22,062 nucleotides of DNA. Origin: a virus. The position numbers and the translations under genes were made by a program. Below the pieces are notes generated by a model. It saw nothing but the letters and a program-made list of their open reading frames with translations. It was not told the origin of the DNA and searched no databases. The stretch lies in IMG/VR virus record IMGVR_UViG_3300042261_001426, positions 1 through 22,062 of that record. One strand, 5' to 3'. Shown here in pieces: positions 10,872-18,291 of this stretch. Every line of letters begins with the position of its first letter. Positions within the stretch are counted from its first letter, which is position 1.

Positions 10872-11063
10872 TTATGTTATGATGAAGTACACAAGCCACA
10901 CCAATAGAATGATAATGGTTGATGCACCTAAACCGAGAAGTGTTACAAATCCATTGATATAACTTGGTTTTGAGTCTTCTATGACTCCCTTCACAAACGG
11001 AATAAGACCAAGAAGACTCAAAAACAGTGCAATAAACAGTTTGATATTTATGATGATATTCAT
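10872..11063 (-). CDS. small two-span membrane protein
   Basis: A 63-residue protein with two hydrophobic segments, about residues 4-26 (INIKLFIALFLSLLGLIPF) and 38-62 (VTLLGLGASTIIILLVWLVY), separated by a charged turn (KGVIEDSKPS). It should sit in the inner membrane as a hairpin. Its ATG overlaps the stop codon of the RNA-ligase C-terminal gene (TAATG), so its translation is probably coupled to it. No family is recognised. Confidence 0.68.
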   Translation of the reverse strand: MNIIINIKLFIALFLSLLGLIPFVKGVIEDSKPSYINGFVTLLGLGASTIIILLVWLVYFIIT

Positions 11064-11767
11064 TACTCTCCTCCTTTGAGCAAAAATTTATTGCTGATCG
11101 CCTTAAAGCTCTTCTCACGAGCATAGGTCTTGAAGACAACTCCTTCCCGTTCTGTATTTGGATTCAATAGAGAAGTACCTTCAGCAAACTTAAGAATGCT
11201 GTCAATGGTGTCATCAGGTTCGAAGTGAAGATGTTCTCCAAGTACAGGTACAGTTTCAATACCAAGTTCCTTACAAATATCAGAAACTGCCCCCCAACCA
11301 AAGAATTTACAATCAGTGATGTTATAAACATTGAAAACAAACATCTTCTGACCTTTCAAATTATACTTATTCTTCTGAATGCCTTCTCCTAAAATCTCAG
11401 ATTGAATAGCAAAATCAACATTGCCATGTTCATGACGAAGTTTTCTCATTTTTGTTTCGAGATCATTTTCCTTGGCAACTTTCCAATATGTATTAGAATC
11501 ATTCTCACGAAGTTCAAGATTGCGAGAACAAACCCCAAATGTATCGCCTTTGATATAGGCAGTGAATGAAGTGCCATCCAACTTCTCAGTAACGAACCAC
11601 GGATCAATTTTCTTCAGTTCATCCCATTCATTGGCAAGATTCTGGCAATTATGAACTAGAATATCATTAGCAAAGAAATTATGATTATCTTCAACAGTTA
11701 TGTCATATCTTTTACTATCGCATTTTATTTTTGTGATAGAGATAACTTCATCAATTATAGTATTCAT
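11063..11767 (-). CDS. IntC split intein + RNA ligase C-extein
   Basis: Downstream half of a fractured gene. Residues 1-40 are a C-intein: RYDITVEDNHNFFANDILVH precedes the terminal Asn, with the penultimate His-Asn and a Cys at +1. This closely resembles C-inteins of the gp41-1/NrdJ-1 split group. The C-extein then runs CQNLANEWDEL to FVTEKLDGTSFTAY, which carries nucleotidyltransferase motif I with the catalytic lysine at residue 62, and continues through the rest of the ligase domain. Alone it lacks the N-terminal OB domain, so activity should need trans-splicing with the product of 12843-13631. I used the ATG at 11765-11767; an in-frame TTG lies 6 bases upstream. Its start overlaps the endonuclease stop. 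Confidence 0.93.
   Translation of the reverse strand: MNTIIDEVISITKIKCDSKRYDITVEDNHNFFANDILVHNCQNLANEWDELKKIDPWFVTEKLDGTSFTAYIKGDTFGVCSRNLELRENDSNTYWKVAKENDLETKMRKLRHEHGNVDFAIQSEILGEGIQKNKYNLKGQKMFVFNVYNITDCKFFGWGAVSDICKELGIETVPVLGEHLHFEPDDTIDSILKFAEGTSLLNPNTEREGVVFKTYAREKSFKAISNKFLLKGGE
11648..11767 (-). other. C-intein half (IntC)
   Basis: Forty residues from the start codon to the splice-site Asn. Block F is NHNFFANDIL and block G is the terminal VHN followed by Cys. The ORF begins with the intein itself, which is what natural split inteins look like. Confidence 0.92.
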
Positions 11768-12764
11768 TTTCAATAAGTTTTTGTTCTACAAGCGAAATTA
11801 ATTCTTCATCTGTTTTTTTTGTTATTTCATTTTCCCATATAGGTATTAAAGTGTATCCATTTTCATTTGCTTTCTTCTTTTTTCTTTCGTCTTTAATCCA
11901 TAAATCTCTTGCTATAATTTTTCCCATTATCAAATCATCAGCCTTATATAATTCTGGATTTGCGTGCCAGAAATCCCCCTGAACTTCTATAATATATTTA
12001 CCAAAAACCATATCATAATTATAATGCCACATGTGTTTATTTGATTCGAAATCAATACCCAATTCAGTCAAACAGAATCTTATTCTTTTTTCCGGCTTTG
12101 AAGAAAAACCTCCTCTTTGTGTGACGGATGCTCTTGCATTTGATGTCCGAGACAATCTTTCTTCATAAGTCCATTTCTCTATTGTTTCTTTTTTTGTTTT
12201 TGCTTTTTTTTCCTTAGCCTCTTTTCCTTGACCAAAATTCTCTTGCCCATATCTCAATAAACATGTTGATTTGCATTTTTCCATTGCATCAAGTTGTATT
12301 GCTGAATCTTTATAATTATTTACATATGATTCCATCATTTTAGTTCTACATTGAGATAAATATTCCTCATATGATCCATAGTTTTTAGCAAATGTTTCTT
12401 CTTTTTTCTTTTGGACGGATTGGACTTGAGACACATTTGTAATATTATCACCATATTTTTCTTGTATGGATGATAGATATTTATCTTTATAGCGTTTAGT
12501 TTTTCTTTCTTCTTTTGAAGAACGTTTTATGCCCATCAAGAAAAGTAATTTTGATATATCAACTGGTAGAGTACTTACGCAATGTTTTTCATTTTTATAA
12601 TCCTCTACAAGAGATTCTACATACTCTTTCCCAAATACAGAATAGACGATATATTCTTCTCTTTCTAAATCATCTTTAAATTCATTTTTATGCATTCTGT
12701 TTATGTGCACAGAAAAACATCTTCTATCTTTAAATTCTTTTTGACAAAATTTACATTTTAACAT
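11751..12764 (-). CDS. Vsr-like (EDxHD) homing endonuclease in intein gap
   Basis: A 337-residue free-standing endonuclease lying between the two split-intein halves. It starts with a C2H2-type finger (CKFCQKEF with HINRMH). The middle region has repeats of the KYG...NVSQVxxV type common in phage homing endonucleases (residues about 103-130 and 171-178). The C-terminus is Vsr/EDxHD-like: IRFCLTELGI (228-237), Asp251 in YDMVFG, EVQGDFWHANP (260-270) and GYTLIPIWENEI (303-314). It presumably cuts the intein-free RNA-ligase allele and drives homing. Its leader holds a hairpin with a late-promoter-like octamer, and a terminator hairpin separates it from the upstream gene. Confidence 0.88.
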   Translation of the reverse strand: MLKCKFCQKEFKDRRCFSVHINRMHKNEFKDDLEREEYIVYSVFGKEYVESLVEDYKNEKHCVSTLPVDISKLLFLMGIKRSSKEERKTKRYKDKYLSSIQEKYGDNITNVSQVQSVQKKKEETFAKNYGSYEEYLSQCRTKMMESYVNNYKDSAIQLDAMEKCKSTCLLRYGQENFGQGKEAKEKKAKTKKETIEKWTYEERLSRTSNARASVTQRGGFSSKPEKRIRFCLTELGIDFESNKHMWHYNYDMVFGKYIIEVQGDFWHANPELYKADDLIMGKIIARDLWIKDERKKKKANENGYTLIPIWENEITKKTDEELISLVEQKLIENEYYN

Positions 12765-12768
12765 TTTA

Positions 12769-12803
12769 ATATGAGTATAGTTAATTAAATTCTATACTTA
12801 TAT
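12769..12803 (-). promoter_or_regulatory. leader hairpin with late-promoter-like octamer
   Basis: On the minus strand ATATAAGTATAG, 11 bases, then CTATACTCATAT form a 12-position stem with 11 pairs. It ends 4 bases before the endonuclease ATG and so covers the ribosome-binding region. The 5' arm contains TATAAGTA (12795-12802), one base off the T4 late promoter TATAAATA. A late start would omit part of the 5' arm and free the start site. The pairing is seen; the regulation is inferred. Confidence 0.5.
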
Positions 12804-12804
12804 T

Positions 12805-12840
12805 CTTAAAAAAGACAAATTCTACTCTGTCTTTTTTAAG
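12805..12840 (-). terminator. hairpin terminator after N-half of RNA ligase
   Basis: A perfect 12-base inverted repeat, CTTAAAAAAGAC and GTCTTTTTTAAG, with a 12-base loop, starting 2 bases after the stop codon of the RNA-ligase N-half. The U-rich 3' arm makes it a plausible intrinsic terminator. It would separate transcription of the N-half from that of the endonuclease. Confidence 0.6.
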
Positions 12841-12842
12841 AA

Positions 12843-13631
12843 TTATTCATCATCAATTATAATAACCCTTTGACCGATAGAAAGATCTGAAACTAATCTA
12901 TAGCTCTTTATATCATCACACCACACTCTATGATTCCCTGTTGCTTTAAGTTTTTTCCCGTTTTTTGTTATAATTTCATACCAATCAGTTGATCCCCTCA
13001 TTATAGAAAAATCAGTAATACTTTTCCATTCTACTGACTGTGTTGCTACGTTATATGATTTAACTTTACATATAATCTTATTCTCACAAATATTTTGTAT
13101 CGTTCTAAATTTGTTATCTTCCACTTCAATCAATGTATCACCTGAAAGACAGCGTTCTTCGTCAGTCTTAGGAATGAATGACGGAAATACTCCCTTTACT
13201 TCACCAGAAAGACACGCAGGAATAGGAGCTTCCCACTTCTGAATTCCAAGAAGTTCTGTAACATCTTCTCCTTCACTGTACAACTCTTCATTAGACTGAA
13301 GAACACCATCATCACAGGTTTTAGGAATGATACCCAACGGCATTATTAAGCCTTGACTGATAACTCCTCTCAGTTTCACAGTCCTTAAAACATGACCTTT
13401 GACATCATTAAACATTCTCGAAGACTTATCAACAAGAAATTGCCACATAGGATTTCCTTCAGGCAAAAACGAGTCAATCTCAAAATATACACCCAATTCA
13501 TTTTCTCTAAACTGATCTTTAGGAACAACTACTTTCCAACCACCGAGAGTTGCAACCTCTATTCTATCAGCTCCTTCAATTGGAGAAATAGCATCAATAC
13601 GGCGAATAGTCGCCATTTTACGTTCACCCAT
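12843..13631 (-). CDS. RNA ligase N-extein + IntN split intein
   Basis: Upstream half of a fractured RNA ligase. Residues 1-160 match the N-terminal OB-fold part of DRB0094/Rnl5-type RNA ligases (MATIRRIDAISPIEGADRIE, then GWKVVVPKDQF and GVYFEIDSFLP) and end FIPKTDEER. Residues 161-262 are an N-intein starting CLSGDTLIEVEDNKF, with block B ATGNHRVW. After splicing the join would read TDEER-CQNLANEW, about 20 residues before the catalytic KLDG. The joined ligase would be about 354 residues, close to the family size. The ATG has a good Shine-Dalgarno (AAAAGGAG). The enzyme would repair or join RNA ends; the substrate is unknown. Confidence 0.93.
   Translation of the reverse strand: MGERKMATIRRIDAISPIEGADRIEVATLGGWKVVVPKDQFRENELGVYFEIDSFLPEGNPMWQFLVDKSSRMFNDVKGHVLRTVKLRGVISQGLIMPLGIIPKTCDDGVLQSNEELYSEGEDVTELLGIQKWEAPIPACLSGEVKGVFPSFIPKTDEERCLSGDTLIEVEDNKFRTIQNICENKIICKVKSYNVATQSVEWKSITDFSIMRGSTDWYEIITKNGKKLKATGNHRVWCDDIKSYRLVSDLSIGQRVIIIDDE
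12846..13151 (-). other. N-intein half (IntN)
   Basis: A 102-residue N-intein from Cys161 to the stop. Block A begins CLSGDTLIEV and block B is ATGNHRVWCDD, both expected for an active splicing domain. No endonuclease domain is inside it; that function sits in the separate ORF downstream. Confidence 0.9.
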
Positions 13632-15491: not shown

Positions 15492-15622
15492 AGATTTCTT
15501 TTTCGCTTGCCTCCCCGCTAACCATTTGCGTACACCCCGATGTTTATTTTTTTGTCGGGGTGGAATGGGTTCGAACCATCATACAGGAGTTTCCATTAGC
15601 TTTTTAATGCTGTTAGAAATCT
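15492..15622 (-). tRNA. circularly permuted tRNA-like gene, Ser(GGA)-like
   Basis: On the minus strand the 3' half comes first (15596 to 15555): ATGGAAA, CTCCT, GTAT, then T arm GATGG-TTCGAAC-CCATT, one extra C, then CACCCCGA. After a 14-base A-rich spacer comes the 5' half (15540 to 15511): TCGGGGTG, TA, D arm CGC-AAATGGTTA-GCG, then GGGAG. Joined between GGGAG and ATGGAAA they give a cloverleaf with an 8-base acceptor match, T8-A9, a GG-containing D loop, a paired anticodon stem, T33, anticodon GGA and purine 37. Complementary 8-mers AGATTTCT and AGAAATCT flank the halves (15615-15622, 15492-15499). Odd points are the short variable loop for Ser and the extra base. Two unrelated half-gene remnants remain possible. 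Confidence 0.5.
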
Positions 15623-15630
15623 TTTCAAAA

Positions 15631-15697
15631 TGTGGGTCGTGATCGAACCTACGATTTTCAGATTATTCTGTTGAGTTAACCACTACTATAGTCCCAC
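15631..15697 (-). pseudogene. degenerate tRNA
   Basis: 67-base tRNA-like sequence. Acceptor GTGGGAC/GACCCAC has one A-A mismatch, T8-A9 are present, and the D loop AGTGGTTA is normal with a 3-pair stem. The anticodon arm is unpairable as a 5+7+5 arm, and the T arm (CGTAGG-TTCGATC-ACGAC) lacks about two bases on its 3' side. About six bases are missing overall compared with a normal tRNA, so I read it as a decayed gene. No anticodon is assigned; GAA lies in the damaged region. Confidence 0.6.
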
Positions 15698-15706
15698 TAT
15701 ATTTAG

Positions 15707-15796
15707 CTCCGTCGGGAAGACTCGAACTTCCATAACATCTCTCGATGTATACAAGGGATTAACAGTCCCTCCTCTTGCCAATTAGAGTACAACGGA
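15707..15796 (-). tRNA. tRNA-Asn(GTT) with long variable arm
   Basis: 90-base tRNA. The acceptor TCCGTTG/CGACGGA has one wobble, T8-A9 are present, and D arm CTCT-AATTGGCA-AGAG is canonical. Anticodon arm AGGGA-CTGTTAA-TCCCT gives GTT, T arm is GGAAG-TTCGAGT-CTTCC, and the discriminator is G. T1-A72, G73 and the anticodon loop match bacterial tRNA-Asn. The variable region is 22 bases instead of about 5 and folds as ACATC-GAGA-GATGT, a 5-pair stem with a GNRA loop. Everything else is intact, so this is a class II-like tRNA with Asn identity elements. Confidence 0.88.
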
Positions 15797-15895: not shown

Positions 15896-15916
15896 TAACA
15901 AATCTATTTATAAAAG

Positions 15917-16004
15917 TTCAGGAGGCAAGGTTCGAACTTGCAGCGAGAGTTTTGCTCTCTCCCCGTCCAAAGCGGGGTGGGGATACCAATTTTCCTACTC
16001 CTGA
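15917..16004 (-). tRNA. class II tRNA with Gln anticodon (TTG)
   Basis: 88-base tRNA with strong stems: acceptor TCAGGAG/CTCCTGA, anticodon stem CCCCG/CGGGG enclosing CTTTGGA (TTG), T arm GCAAG-TTCGAAC-CTTGC, discriminator A. The variable region is 19 bases with a perfect GAGAG-CAAAA-CTCTC hairpin, and the D arm GGA-AAATTGGTA-TCC with three extra bases resembles Leu/Ser tRNAs. The anticodon says Gln, but the body (long arm, 3-pair D stem, A73) looks like Leu. The charged amino acid cannot be decided from sequence. Confidence 0.85.
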
Positions 16005-16484: not shown

Positions 16485-16568
16485 CAAAACAGTTATCAAA
16501 CTTCCAAATTTTTTTTGTTAAAATGTTTTAAAAATTATGGTTTACTCCTGAGATATAGTGTAATATAG

Positions 16569-16643
16569 TGACCAGTAGGGGATTCGAATCCCTGAAATGC
16601 TGGTTAGAAAGACCAGTGCCGCGAACCACTTGGCTAACGGGCC
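16569..16643 (-). tRNA. tRNA-Glu(TTC), imperfect stems
   Basis: 75-base cloverleaf. D stem is GCC/GGC and anticodon arm CTGGT-CTTTCTA-ACCAG gives TTC. The T arm is AGGGA-TTCGAAT-CCCCT with an A-C mismatch next to the loop, and the acceptor GGCCCGT/ACTGGTC has one C-T mismatch and one wobble. Discriminator A. The first 10 bases are shared with the 3' end of the homing endonuclease ORF, whose TAG stop is T8-A9-G10 of the tRNA. Confidence 0.75.
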
Positions 16644-17407
16644 ATGTTATATTGTATTTTATTTGCTGACTTGCCAGCACATTGTCGTGAACAATATTTC
16701 CTTTCTGTATTTCTTTTTCTTTTTGTAGAAAATTCTTTACCACATAAAGAACAAGTATAAGTAAATAAATTCACCTTTGAATCGTCATACAATTCCTCCA
16801 AATATCTATATTCATAATTATCTTTTACCCAATCGAATTCTCTTTTTAAATCACTTTTATATAGAACATCAATAGTATATCCATTATTAATTGCCAGTTC
16901 ACATTTCTTATCAACCAATTCAGCCCAAAACCCCTTTATCTCATATATATGTTTCTTTTCCACAAAGTCTGGATAATATTTTATCCCCTCTCCTTCTATA
17001 TACCCAGGGAATCTTTCAACTAATAAATCATTATCAAGTCTATATATAACCCAAACTAATTCATATGTTGAACCACAATAAATACCTTTATAATATCCGG
17101 AGTGTGATCTGCCAGAACCATTTCTATAACCACCTGTGTTTGTCTTATCATGCCCTTTATCAGCACATTCTTTAGAACAAAACTTCCTGTCTTTATATGA
17201 TACAAACTCTTTATTACAGTATTTGCATATTAAATTAAATTGTTTCCTACTATTGCCTTTGTTCCACGGAACATTTCCTTTCAATGCCTCTGATATTTTT
17301 TTCCTAACTTCTTTAGTTCTAACTCTTGATTTTGCGCAAGAGATAGAACAGAACCTACCAGTGCCATAAGAACCATCATGTTCTTTTCCGCATTTTTCAC
17401 ATTTCAT
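16634..17407 (-). CDS. PD-(D/E)XK homing endonuclease in tRNA cluster
   Basis: A 257-residue free-standing endonuclease. Three zinc fingers of the C-x-x-C...C-x-x-x-C type lie at residues 3-24, 61-81 and about 218-243. A NUMOD3-like DNA-binding motif (RKKISEALKGNVPWNKG, residues 35-51) follows the first finger. The nuclease core is GSTYELVWVIY (112-122) and YYPDF with EIKG (Pro146, Asp147, Glu156, Lys158), a PD-(D/E)XK signature. Its last codons and stop overlap the 5' end of tRNA-Glu, and a tRNA-like fragment lies directly upstream, so the cluster itself is the probable target. Its leader hairpin contains a T4-late-promoter-like octamer. Confidence 0.85.
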   Translation of the reverse strand: MKCEKCGKEHDGSYGTGRFCSISCAKSRVRTKEVRKKISEALKGNVPWNKGNSRKQFNLICKYCNKEFVSYKDRKFCSKECADKGHDKTNTGGYRNGSGRSHSGYYKGIYCGSTYELVWVIYRLDNDLLVERFPGYIEGEGIKYYPDFVEKKHIYEIKGFWAELVDKKCELAINNGYTIDVLYKSDLKREFDWVKDNYEYRYLEELYDDSKVNLFTYTCSLCGKEFSTKRKRNTERKYCSRQCAGKSANKIQYNMAR

Positions 17408-17412
17408 ATTAT

Positions 17413-17463
17413 TTCGGTTTAGTTATAAAATACATCTGTTATACGTATTTATAAAAAACCGAA
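17413..17463 (-). promoter_or_regulatory. leader hairpin with TATAAATA late promoter
   Basis: Minus-strand TTCGGTTT pairs with AAACCGAA (8 pairs), and the inner arms GTATTTATAA / TTATAAAATAC (plus-strand view) add 10 pairs around one bulge, leaving an 11-base loop. The 3' arm ends 5 bases before the endonuclease ATG, covering the ribosome-binding region. The 5' arm contains TATAAATA (17446-17453), the exact T4 late promoter. Initiation about 6 bases downstream would fall in the loop and remove the 5' arm. Confidence 0.65.
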
Positions 17464-17515
17464 CCTCTAATGAAAACCTTGGTTTATCATCTTAACCAAT
17501 TCGCCTACAGGAGCT
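17456..17515 (-). pseudogene. tRNA fragment truncated at T loop
   Basis: A tRNA-like 5' part: acceptor strand AGCTCCTG, TA, D arm around AATTGGTTA, an unpaired or rearranged anticodon region, then AGAGGTTCG, where the sequence switches to the endonuclease leader (GGTTTTTT). The D-loop to T-loop distance is about that of a tRNA. No CAGGAGCT acceptor strand follows. It looks like a tRNA interrupted at the T loop by the endonuclease cassette, but decay without insertion is possible. Confidence 0.45.
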
Positions 17516-18089: not shown

Positions 18090-18212
18090 AAAAATCATAA
18101 TTCGCAACACAAGACGGTTATCAATCATGGCGATTCCGTTCTTCGGGTAGAGTAAAGGTTCGACGGCCCGATTAAGTGTTCTTTCTATTACTAATCAAGA
18201 ATTATGATTTTT
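18090..18212 (-). ncRNA. structured inverted-repeat spacer RNA
   Basis: Perfect 14-base inverted repeat AAAAATCATAATTC / GAATTATGATTTTT closes a 123-base element that exactly fills the space between two tRNAs. Inside are AACAC/GTGTT (18106-18110 with 18176-18180), ACGG/CCGT (18114-18117 with 18136-18139) and CGGG/CCCG (18144-18147 with 18167-18170), which can form a three-way junction. It is not a tRNA that I can fold. It could be a small RNA, a processing element or the remnant of a rearranged tRNA. Confidence 0.45.
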
Positions 18213-18213
18213 G

Positions 18214-18291
18214 TGGATCAGCAGAGAATCGAACTCTGGTCCGGCAAGCTCCATGTAGGTTTTTCTTACCGTCAACACACCTGTCTGACCC
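18214..18291 (-). tRNA. non-canonical tRNA-like gene, anticodon unresolved
   Basis: 78-base gene with good ends: acceptor GGGTCAG/CTGATCC (one wobble), T arm CAGAG-TTCGATT-CTCTG (perfect), discriminator A. The 46 bases between do not give a normal D plus anticodon arm. Two competing folds are visible: AGGT...ACCT as a D stem with an 18-base loop, or CGGTAAG/CTTGCCG as a 7-pair arm with a 16-base loop. The first gene of the cluster, it starts just after promoter copy 4. Confidence 0.55.

Follow-up and report, generated by a model that had tools for sequence, protein, structure and literature searches.

Circularly permuted transfer RNA (tRNA) genes are known from Cyanidioschyzon, other algae and Thermofilum pendens, where maturation depends on a bulge-helix-bulge (BHB) motif and the tRNA-splicing endonuclease (PMC3978253, PMC3218864). 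A review from 2014, in which the word phage does not occur, puts the number of such genes at 34, from six algae and a single archaeon (PMC3978253). The excerpted text of the Lak megaphage report calls the introns found in those phage tRNA genes enigmatic and previously unreported (Devoto 2019, PMC6784885), and theta ribozymes, which are hepatitis delta virus-like, are described as adjoining gut-phage tRNAs (PMC10879173). Here we describe a permuted tRNA gene in a viral contig, IMG/VR record IMGVR_UViG_3300042261_001426, positions 1 to 22,062; this whole stretch of 22,062 nt is the window. On the minus strand, from 15622 to 15492, the 3′ half of a tRNA is followed by its 5′ half, and the two are enclosed by a complementary flank helix designated P1. 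With a probability of roughly 0.78, this region appears to be a circularly permuted tRNA gene with one half of a short, undescribed tRNA intron on each side; its function as a tRNA in this phage is predicted from sequence. Full-text literature searches gave no permuted tRNA gene of a phage, although a recent report could be missed.

The order of the halves, the short spacer and the pairing of the termini are shared with the algal and archaeal genes. A circular intermediate has been demonstrated in algae and is predicted for the phage genes. Whereas the algal and archaeal genes carry a BHB cleaved by the endonuclease, the phage genes have no BHB, their junction is in the anticodon arm, and they have the P1 helix with a UAACAGCAA bulge. 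To our knowledge, bacteria lack BHB splicing. In permuted group I intron-exon constructs, an exon is likewise placed between intron halves of swapped order, and a circle results from splicing, but the phage unit is only ~36-57 nt and has no match to a group I or group II intron, or to a ribozyme, in Rfam (E<=1 for the window, E<=0.5 for seven intron-form or permuted loci). Theta ribozymes are likewise RNA processing elements associated with phage tRNAs (PMC10879173), whereas the unit described here brackets tRNA halves or interrupts the anticodon arm. The Lak megaphages also have introns in tRNA genes, with neither permuted genes nor a comparable conserved element encountered in the excerpted text (PMC6784885). 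Identity of the Lak-phage introns with this element was considered and is not supported for Lak-A2, in which a search for AACAGCAA plus a T arm gave no match.

All of the elements listed in a first-pass annotation of the gene were located in place in the window sequence. That annotation overlooked TAACAGCA, which lies at 15615-15608, just inside the flank helix, and is the feature through which relatives were recognized. A home-made scan for a T arm and acceptor 3′ strand followed by an acceptor 5′ strand and D arm, applied to phage loci fetched for other reasons, gave a first candidate in locus L017. In both L017 and the window, the 5′ strand of the helix runs directly into TAACAGCA, and 26 nt lie between the end of that strand and the anticodon stem; the helix sequences differ. 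An IMG/VR scan for TAACAGCA followed by AAA and next by a T arm, in which neither permutation nor pairing was required, returned at least 100 loci. Among the matches listed, to which the following counts also refer, there are ~43 distinct permuted tRNA genes on phage contigs, with many isotypes and a common flank helix. The 84 distinct hits with full context provide a non-circular test set. In 46 of these 84, the 7 nt preceding TAACAGCA have an exact reverse complement downstream of the T arm, with 0.58 expected from swapped 7-mers. A partner for the acceptor 3′ strand, followed by a D-arm-like stretch, is present downstream in 22, against an expectation of 1.32, and upstream in 17, against 1.06.

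An alignment of 32 permuted precursors, from which the window was left out, has 88.2% of its cells paired and a covariation score of 0.681, compared with 0.195 for shuffles and <=0.157 for slid partners. The two halves, examined for a possible lack of covariation, were found to covary, with double-sided changes at 26 of the 28 pairs, among them all seven P1 pairs and all seven acceptor pairs. As P1 and acceptor pairing served in the selection of members, the percentage paired is in part by construction; the sequence changes are not. A covariance model built from these 32 genes matches the window gene over its full length with 60.5 bits (E 1.5e-9), and the next-best match inside the window, a tandem Arg/Pro tRNA, has 32.1 bits. 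Applied to 1.24 Mb of other tRNA-rich phage loci, the best match of the model besides L017 has 43.6 bits (E 1.3e-4), and its main background is tandem ordinary tRNAs, which reach 46.8 bits in phage PAU. The proposal made from the window alone, that this is a circularly permuted tRNA gene whose flanking helix draws the ends together, is thus upheld by relatives of equal architecture, by covariation between the halves and by the held-out match.

When the halves of each member are joined to give an anticodon stem with at least four of five pairs and a 7-nt loop, ARAGORN with default settings calls a tRNA in 42 of 43 members, compared with 77 of 400 (19%) when halves of different members are joined. 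Many of the joined loops are textbook anticodon loops (CTGCAAA, CTTGTAA, CTGATAA, CTTCTAA); here the two halves meet within the 5′ strand of the anticodon stem. A second group of members, the window gene among them, has its junction in the anticodon loop, and the 3′ half in the window would start near 15596/15595.

Pattern hits that have no 5′ half downstream have it upstream instead, and so are tRNA genes of normal order interrupted in the anticodon arm by a segment consisting of an A-rich stretch, a P1 strand, a loop, the second P1 strand and TAACAGCAA. There were 43 such intron-form genes in a first scan and 33 in a stricter scan, in which five control motifs (reversed, complemented or scrambled) gave none. 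ARAGORN called 31 of the 33 as tRNAs after in-silico splicing and none of the 33 before. In these 33, the predicted introns are 36-57 nt long, with one of 28 nt; there are 29 different P1 sequences, and the P1 loop begins with a G in 31. This G is retained immediately after the P1 3′ strand (P1′) in nearly all of the permuted genes, the window gene included. A second helix, P2, within the motif is common, as judged by eye, and not universal. A BLAST search of phages with the introns of locus L213 gave no match. Most simply, opening of the intron form at the P1 loop and loss of its outer halves would yield the permuted genes. Because the hairpin-plus-TAACAGCA unit is also an intron in tRNA genes of ordinary order, the permuted genes would amount to a short, undescribed tRNA intron in a naturally permuted intron-exon arrangement.

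The window gene has the corresponding features: a 7-bp AGATTTC/GAAATCT helix directly followed by TAACAGCAT, the last base of which departs from TAACAGCAA, and an A-rich stretch before the 3′ strand of P1 with a G right after it (GAAAAA-GAAATCT-G). The complementary 8-mers noted in the flanks by the first-pass annotation, AGATTTCT (15622-15615) and AGAAATCT (15499-15492), are present, and the helix they were thought to form covaries in the relatives; their suggested role as a device that brings the ends together is too narrow, as the flank is not a mere clamp but half of an intron-like unit, P1 plus TAACAGCAA. As encoded, the gene is undetected in the window by Rfam or ARAGORN. The minimum free energy (MFE) fold of the 131 nt from 15622 to 15492, predicted unaided by RNAfold, has -31.8 kcal/mol, versus -24.6 for shuffles (z -2.1), and returns the flank helix, anticodon stem, T arm, acceptor hairpin and D stem. 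The sequence between CACCCCG(A) (15562-15555) and (T)CGGGGTG (15540-15533) is 14 nt. A permuted tRNA scoring at least as high as that of the window, with the flank helix not counted, was obtained in 12 of 22,292 dinucleotide-shuffled windows, and no complete ordinary tRNA that uses either half was found on either side of the gene. The bare permuted pattern is unlikely, although not impossible, by chance, and it is the relatives that decide. The parts of the gene are listed in Table 1.

Table 1. Parts of the permuted tRNA gene, in order of transcription, with window positions
Feature	Position	Strand	Basis or remark
P1 flank helix, 5′ strand AGATTTC	15616..15622	-	pairs with 15498-15492
Conserved element TAACAGCA, bulge adjoining P1	15608..15615	-	identical 8 nt in identical place in L017 and the pattern-search family
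Linker and 3′ part of anticodon loop	15590..15607	-	sequence; ATGGAAA at 15596-15590, anticodon GGA
Anticodon stem, 3′ strand CTCCT	15585..15589	-	pairs with 15515-15511 in MFE fold
T arm GATGG-TTCGAAC-CCATT	15564..15580	-	sequence, fold, covariance alignment
Acceptor 3′ strand CACCCCG and discriminator A	15555..15562	-	pairs with 15539-15533
Spacer between tRNA 3′ and 5′ ends	15540..15554	-	sequence; T15540 able to pair with A15555
Acceptor 5′ strand CGGGGTG	15533..15539	-	7/7 Watson-Crick with 15562-15556
T8-A9 (15532-15531) and D arm CGC-AAATGGTTA-GCG (15530-15516)	15516..15532	-	sequence, ARAGORN model
Anticodon stem, 5′ strand GGGAG, end of 5′ half	15511..15515	-	pairs with CTCCT
Linker GCAAGCGAAAAA ahead of P1′	15499..15510	-	family consensus AAAAT
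P1 flank helix, 3′ strand GAAATCT, then conserved G15491	15492..15498	-	family comparison

By its sequence, the transcript can fold so that P1 keeps its ends together, with TAACAGCA bulged beside P1 and the broken anticodon arm stacked below. This fold is maintained by compensatory changes across many phage relatives. From it we infer a processing pathway in which the splicing activity that removes the intron would connect the 5′ half, at its end near 15511, with the 3′ half, at its start near 15596, resulting in a circular RNA and release of both flanks. RNase P and 3′-end processing would subsequently excise the spacer, generating a linear tRNA with the anticodon GGA. Genes of this type probably originated by tandem duplication of an intron-containing tRNA gene, followed by loss of the outer halves.

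Several observations weigh against this interpretation. The splice points are predictions, and 12 of 42 joined loops in the relatives do not have U33, so the exact positions may differ or extra processing may be needed. The window gene is a weaker member of the family, the single one of 43 without a default ARAGORN call. The elements of the cloverleaf with anticodon GGA that the first-pass annotation predicted on joining are present, but ARAGORN reports the joined halves as a 72-nt tRNA-Ser(gga) only at the relaxed thresholds -ps80 and -ps50. The weak points that the annotation itself named, a short variable loop and an extra base before the acceptor strand (C15563), are real, and the D stem has only 3 bp. 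Bacterial tRNA-Ser has a long variable arm, and the short variable loop of the window tRNA conflicts with its Ser-type anticodon.

Two alternatives concern the agent of splicing and are, therefore, alternatives within the permuted-gene interpretation rather than to it. The first, for which we would give slightly less than even odds, is that a host or phage protein nuclease recognizes the P1-bulge unit and that a ligase, host RtcB or phage Rnl, seals the joint, as in archaeal and eukaryal tRNA splicing. Permuted tRNA genes elsewhere are spliced by proteins (PMC3978253), RNA ligases are encoded in some element-bearing contigs, and the RNA ligase gene (PF09414) ~1.9 kb downstream of the window gene is genuine, as the first-pass annotation had proposed. 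As a general mechanism, sealing of the joint by this ligase is not supported. PF09414 and PF09511 are found in only some element-bearing contigs, RtcB is found in one of 28 records, and all three are absent from two large contigs, G012 (302 kb) and G028 (208 kb), which may be fragments. Because these contigs have the element without the three ligase families, the ligase near the window may assist splicing but is not generally required. The tRNA-splicing endonuclease domain tRNA_int_endo (PF01974) was found in none of 18 phage records, with 4 control archaea positive, and inspection of the MFE fold at the junction revealed no BHB (3-nt, 4-bp, 3-nt) and, between the anticodon stem and P1, a large asymmetric internal loop. 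RNA ligase, RtcB and tRNA endonuclease were each considered as universal partners and rejected as general requirements.

The second possible agent is the RNA itself, with P1, the conserved apex G and the UAACAGCAA bulge forming a new ~50-nt ribozyme that would carry out both cleavage and joining or leave the joining to a host ligase. The bulge sequence is strongly conserved inside a covarying helix, the element is spread across contigs of very different phages and a few Clostridia and Bacilli assemblies, and the absence of the three ligase families from G012 and G028 is consistent with a phage RNA ligase being dispensable. A hairpin recognized by a protein would, however, look alike, host ligases could still participate, and we know of no self-splicing RNA as small as ~50 nt, so self-splicing seems rather doubtful. 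A broader proposal is on the unlikely side, namely that the family constitutes a new class of self-splicing introns, very small (36-57 nt) and built of one hairpin and the conserved UAACAGCAA bulge, the permutation of which makes circular tRNA precursors in bacteria without a splicing protein.

A further, unlikely reading accepts the family as real but takes its copy in the window for a decaying pseudogene, with an inherited structure and a non-functional product. C15563, the weak D stem and the conflict in identity are consistent with decay, as is a degenerate-looking tRNA-like sequence just upstream (15626-15692, minus strand), which has a GTGGGAC/GACCCAC acceptor, an off-register T arm and no call at default thresholds. 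Against decay, P1, the motif, the acceptor stem (7/7), the T arm and the anticodon stem are intact, U33 is present and the model score is 60.5 bits. That a terminator-like hairpin and two unrelated tRNA fragments are simply chance neighbours is highly improbable: shuffled windows and tandem tRNAs can give permuted-looking scores, but such neighbours do not account for the exact TAACAGCA at the family position, the covarying flank helix and the lack of a flanking complete tRNA that uses these halves, nor for the 7-mer and acceptor partner test and the held-out match.

A permuted tRNA gene bracketed by intron halves is thus the preferred reading, and the distribution of the family is documented as follows. 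The AACAGCAA plus T arm pattern is present in 21 of 23 element-bearing records and in none of five phage contigs with ordinary tRNAs; the reversed pattern has no match. Both the permuted and the intron form are present in a few bacterial assembly contigs (Clostridium, Bacilli, Sarcina sp. DSM 11001, Lachnospiraceae), possibly as phage sequence. An exact-pattern scan with the window's own acceptor bases gave no match, and a DNA BLAST of the permuted precursors against cultured phages matched only halves to ordinary tRNAs, for example the L153 3′ half with ~84% identity to a phage tRNA-Tyr. The closest protein relatives (L002, L003, L004, L006 and L007) have no tRNA array for comparison. Three further loci (L159 706-803, L165 3414-3512 and L186 1982-2107) have P1 and TAACAGCA around a T arm and a small hairpin, with no clear 5′ half, and are either truncated or have a different cargo.

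A divergent intron form, TCACAGCAA, interrupts a tRNA-Arg gene of the 735-kb huge phage LR756501. The same phage has a permuted candidate of a second kind (L005 ~16675-16760, minus strand), with swapped halves and no P1 or motif, located between two tRNAs, the processing of which would leave CTAT plus AAA, a 7-nt anticodon loop. In the cultured Vibrio phage 6E35.1a, a tRNA flagged pseudogene/OTHER (L292 2994-3103; 164514-164623 of the phage record) becomes, by eye, a proper tRNA-Asn(GTT) on removal of ~40 nt that include a hairpin followed by CTACCGCA, possibly a diverged version of the motif; as a single example, it is weaker. A tRNA-Ser gene of cultured Sphingomonas phage PAU (gp8, L294 1615-1757) is annotated with an intron, and the AAC[AT]GCAA motif was not found in that stretch.

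Other RNA-related features are present in the window, all on the minus strand. The RNA ligase gene (11063-13631) is in two open reading frames (ORFs) that carry intein N and C parts, separated by a Vsr-like nuclease ORF (11751-12764), an arrangement that suggests a split intein in a fractured gene. Two tRNAs, GTT (Asn; 15706-15796) and TTG (Gln; 15916-16004), have long class II variable arms, unusual for these isotypes. At 16545-17508, a tRNA-like 5′ part (GCTCCTG...GGTTCG) is cut off within the T loop, ahead of a NUMOD3 homing-nuclease ORF, with the matching acceptor strand CAGGAGT beyond that ORF, possibly a broken tRNA. An 81-nt sequence (18211-18291) resembles transfer-messenger RNA (tmRNA), matching positions 1-374 of the Rfam tmRNA model with the middle missing (38.5 bits, E 2.3e-12, below the gathering score); it has an acceptor, a T arm, a GACGG motif and a GGTAAG/CTTGCC helix, and no room for a tag reading frame.

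Permuted tRNA genes have hitherto been known from algae and one archaeon, always linked to BHB splicing, and the family described here implies a previously undescribed route of tRNA splicing in bacteria and their viruses, self-catalysed or protein-based. Standard tRNA finders would miss a set of phage tRNAs. The family offers compact natural parts for the production of circular RNA, and the tRNA-Asn of the cultured Vibrio phage 6E35.1a, apparently a divergent member, makes the question of how these RNAs are spliced testable.
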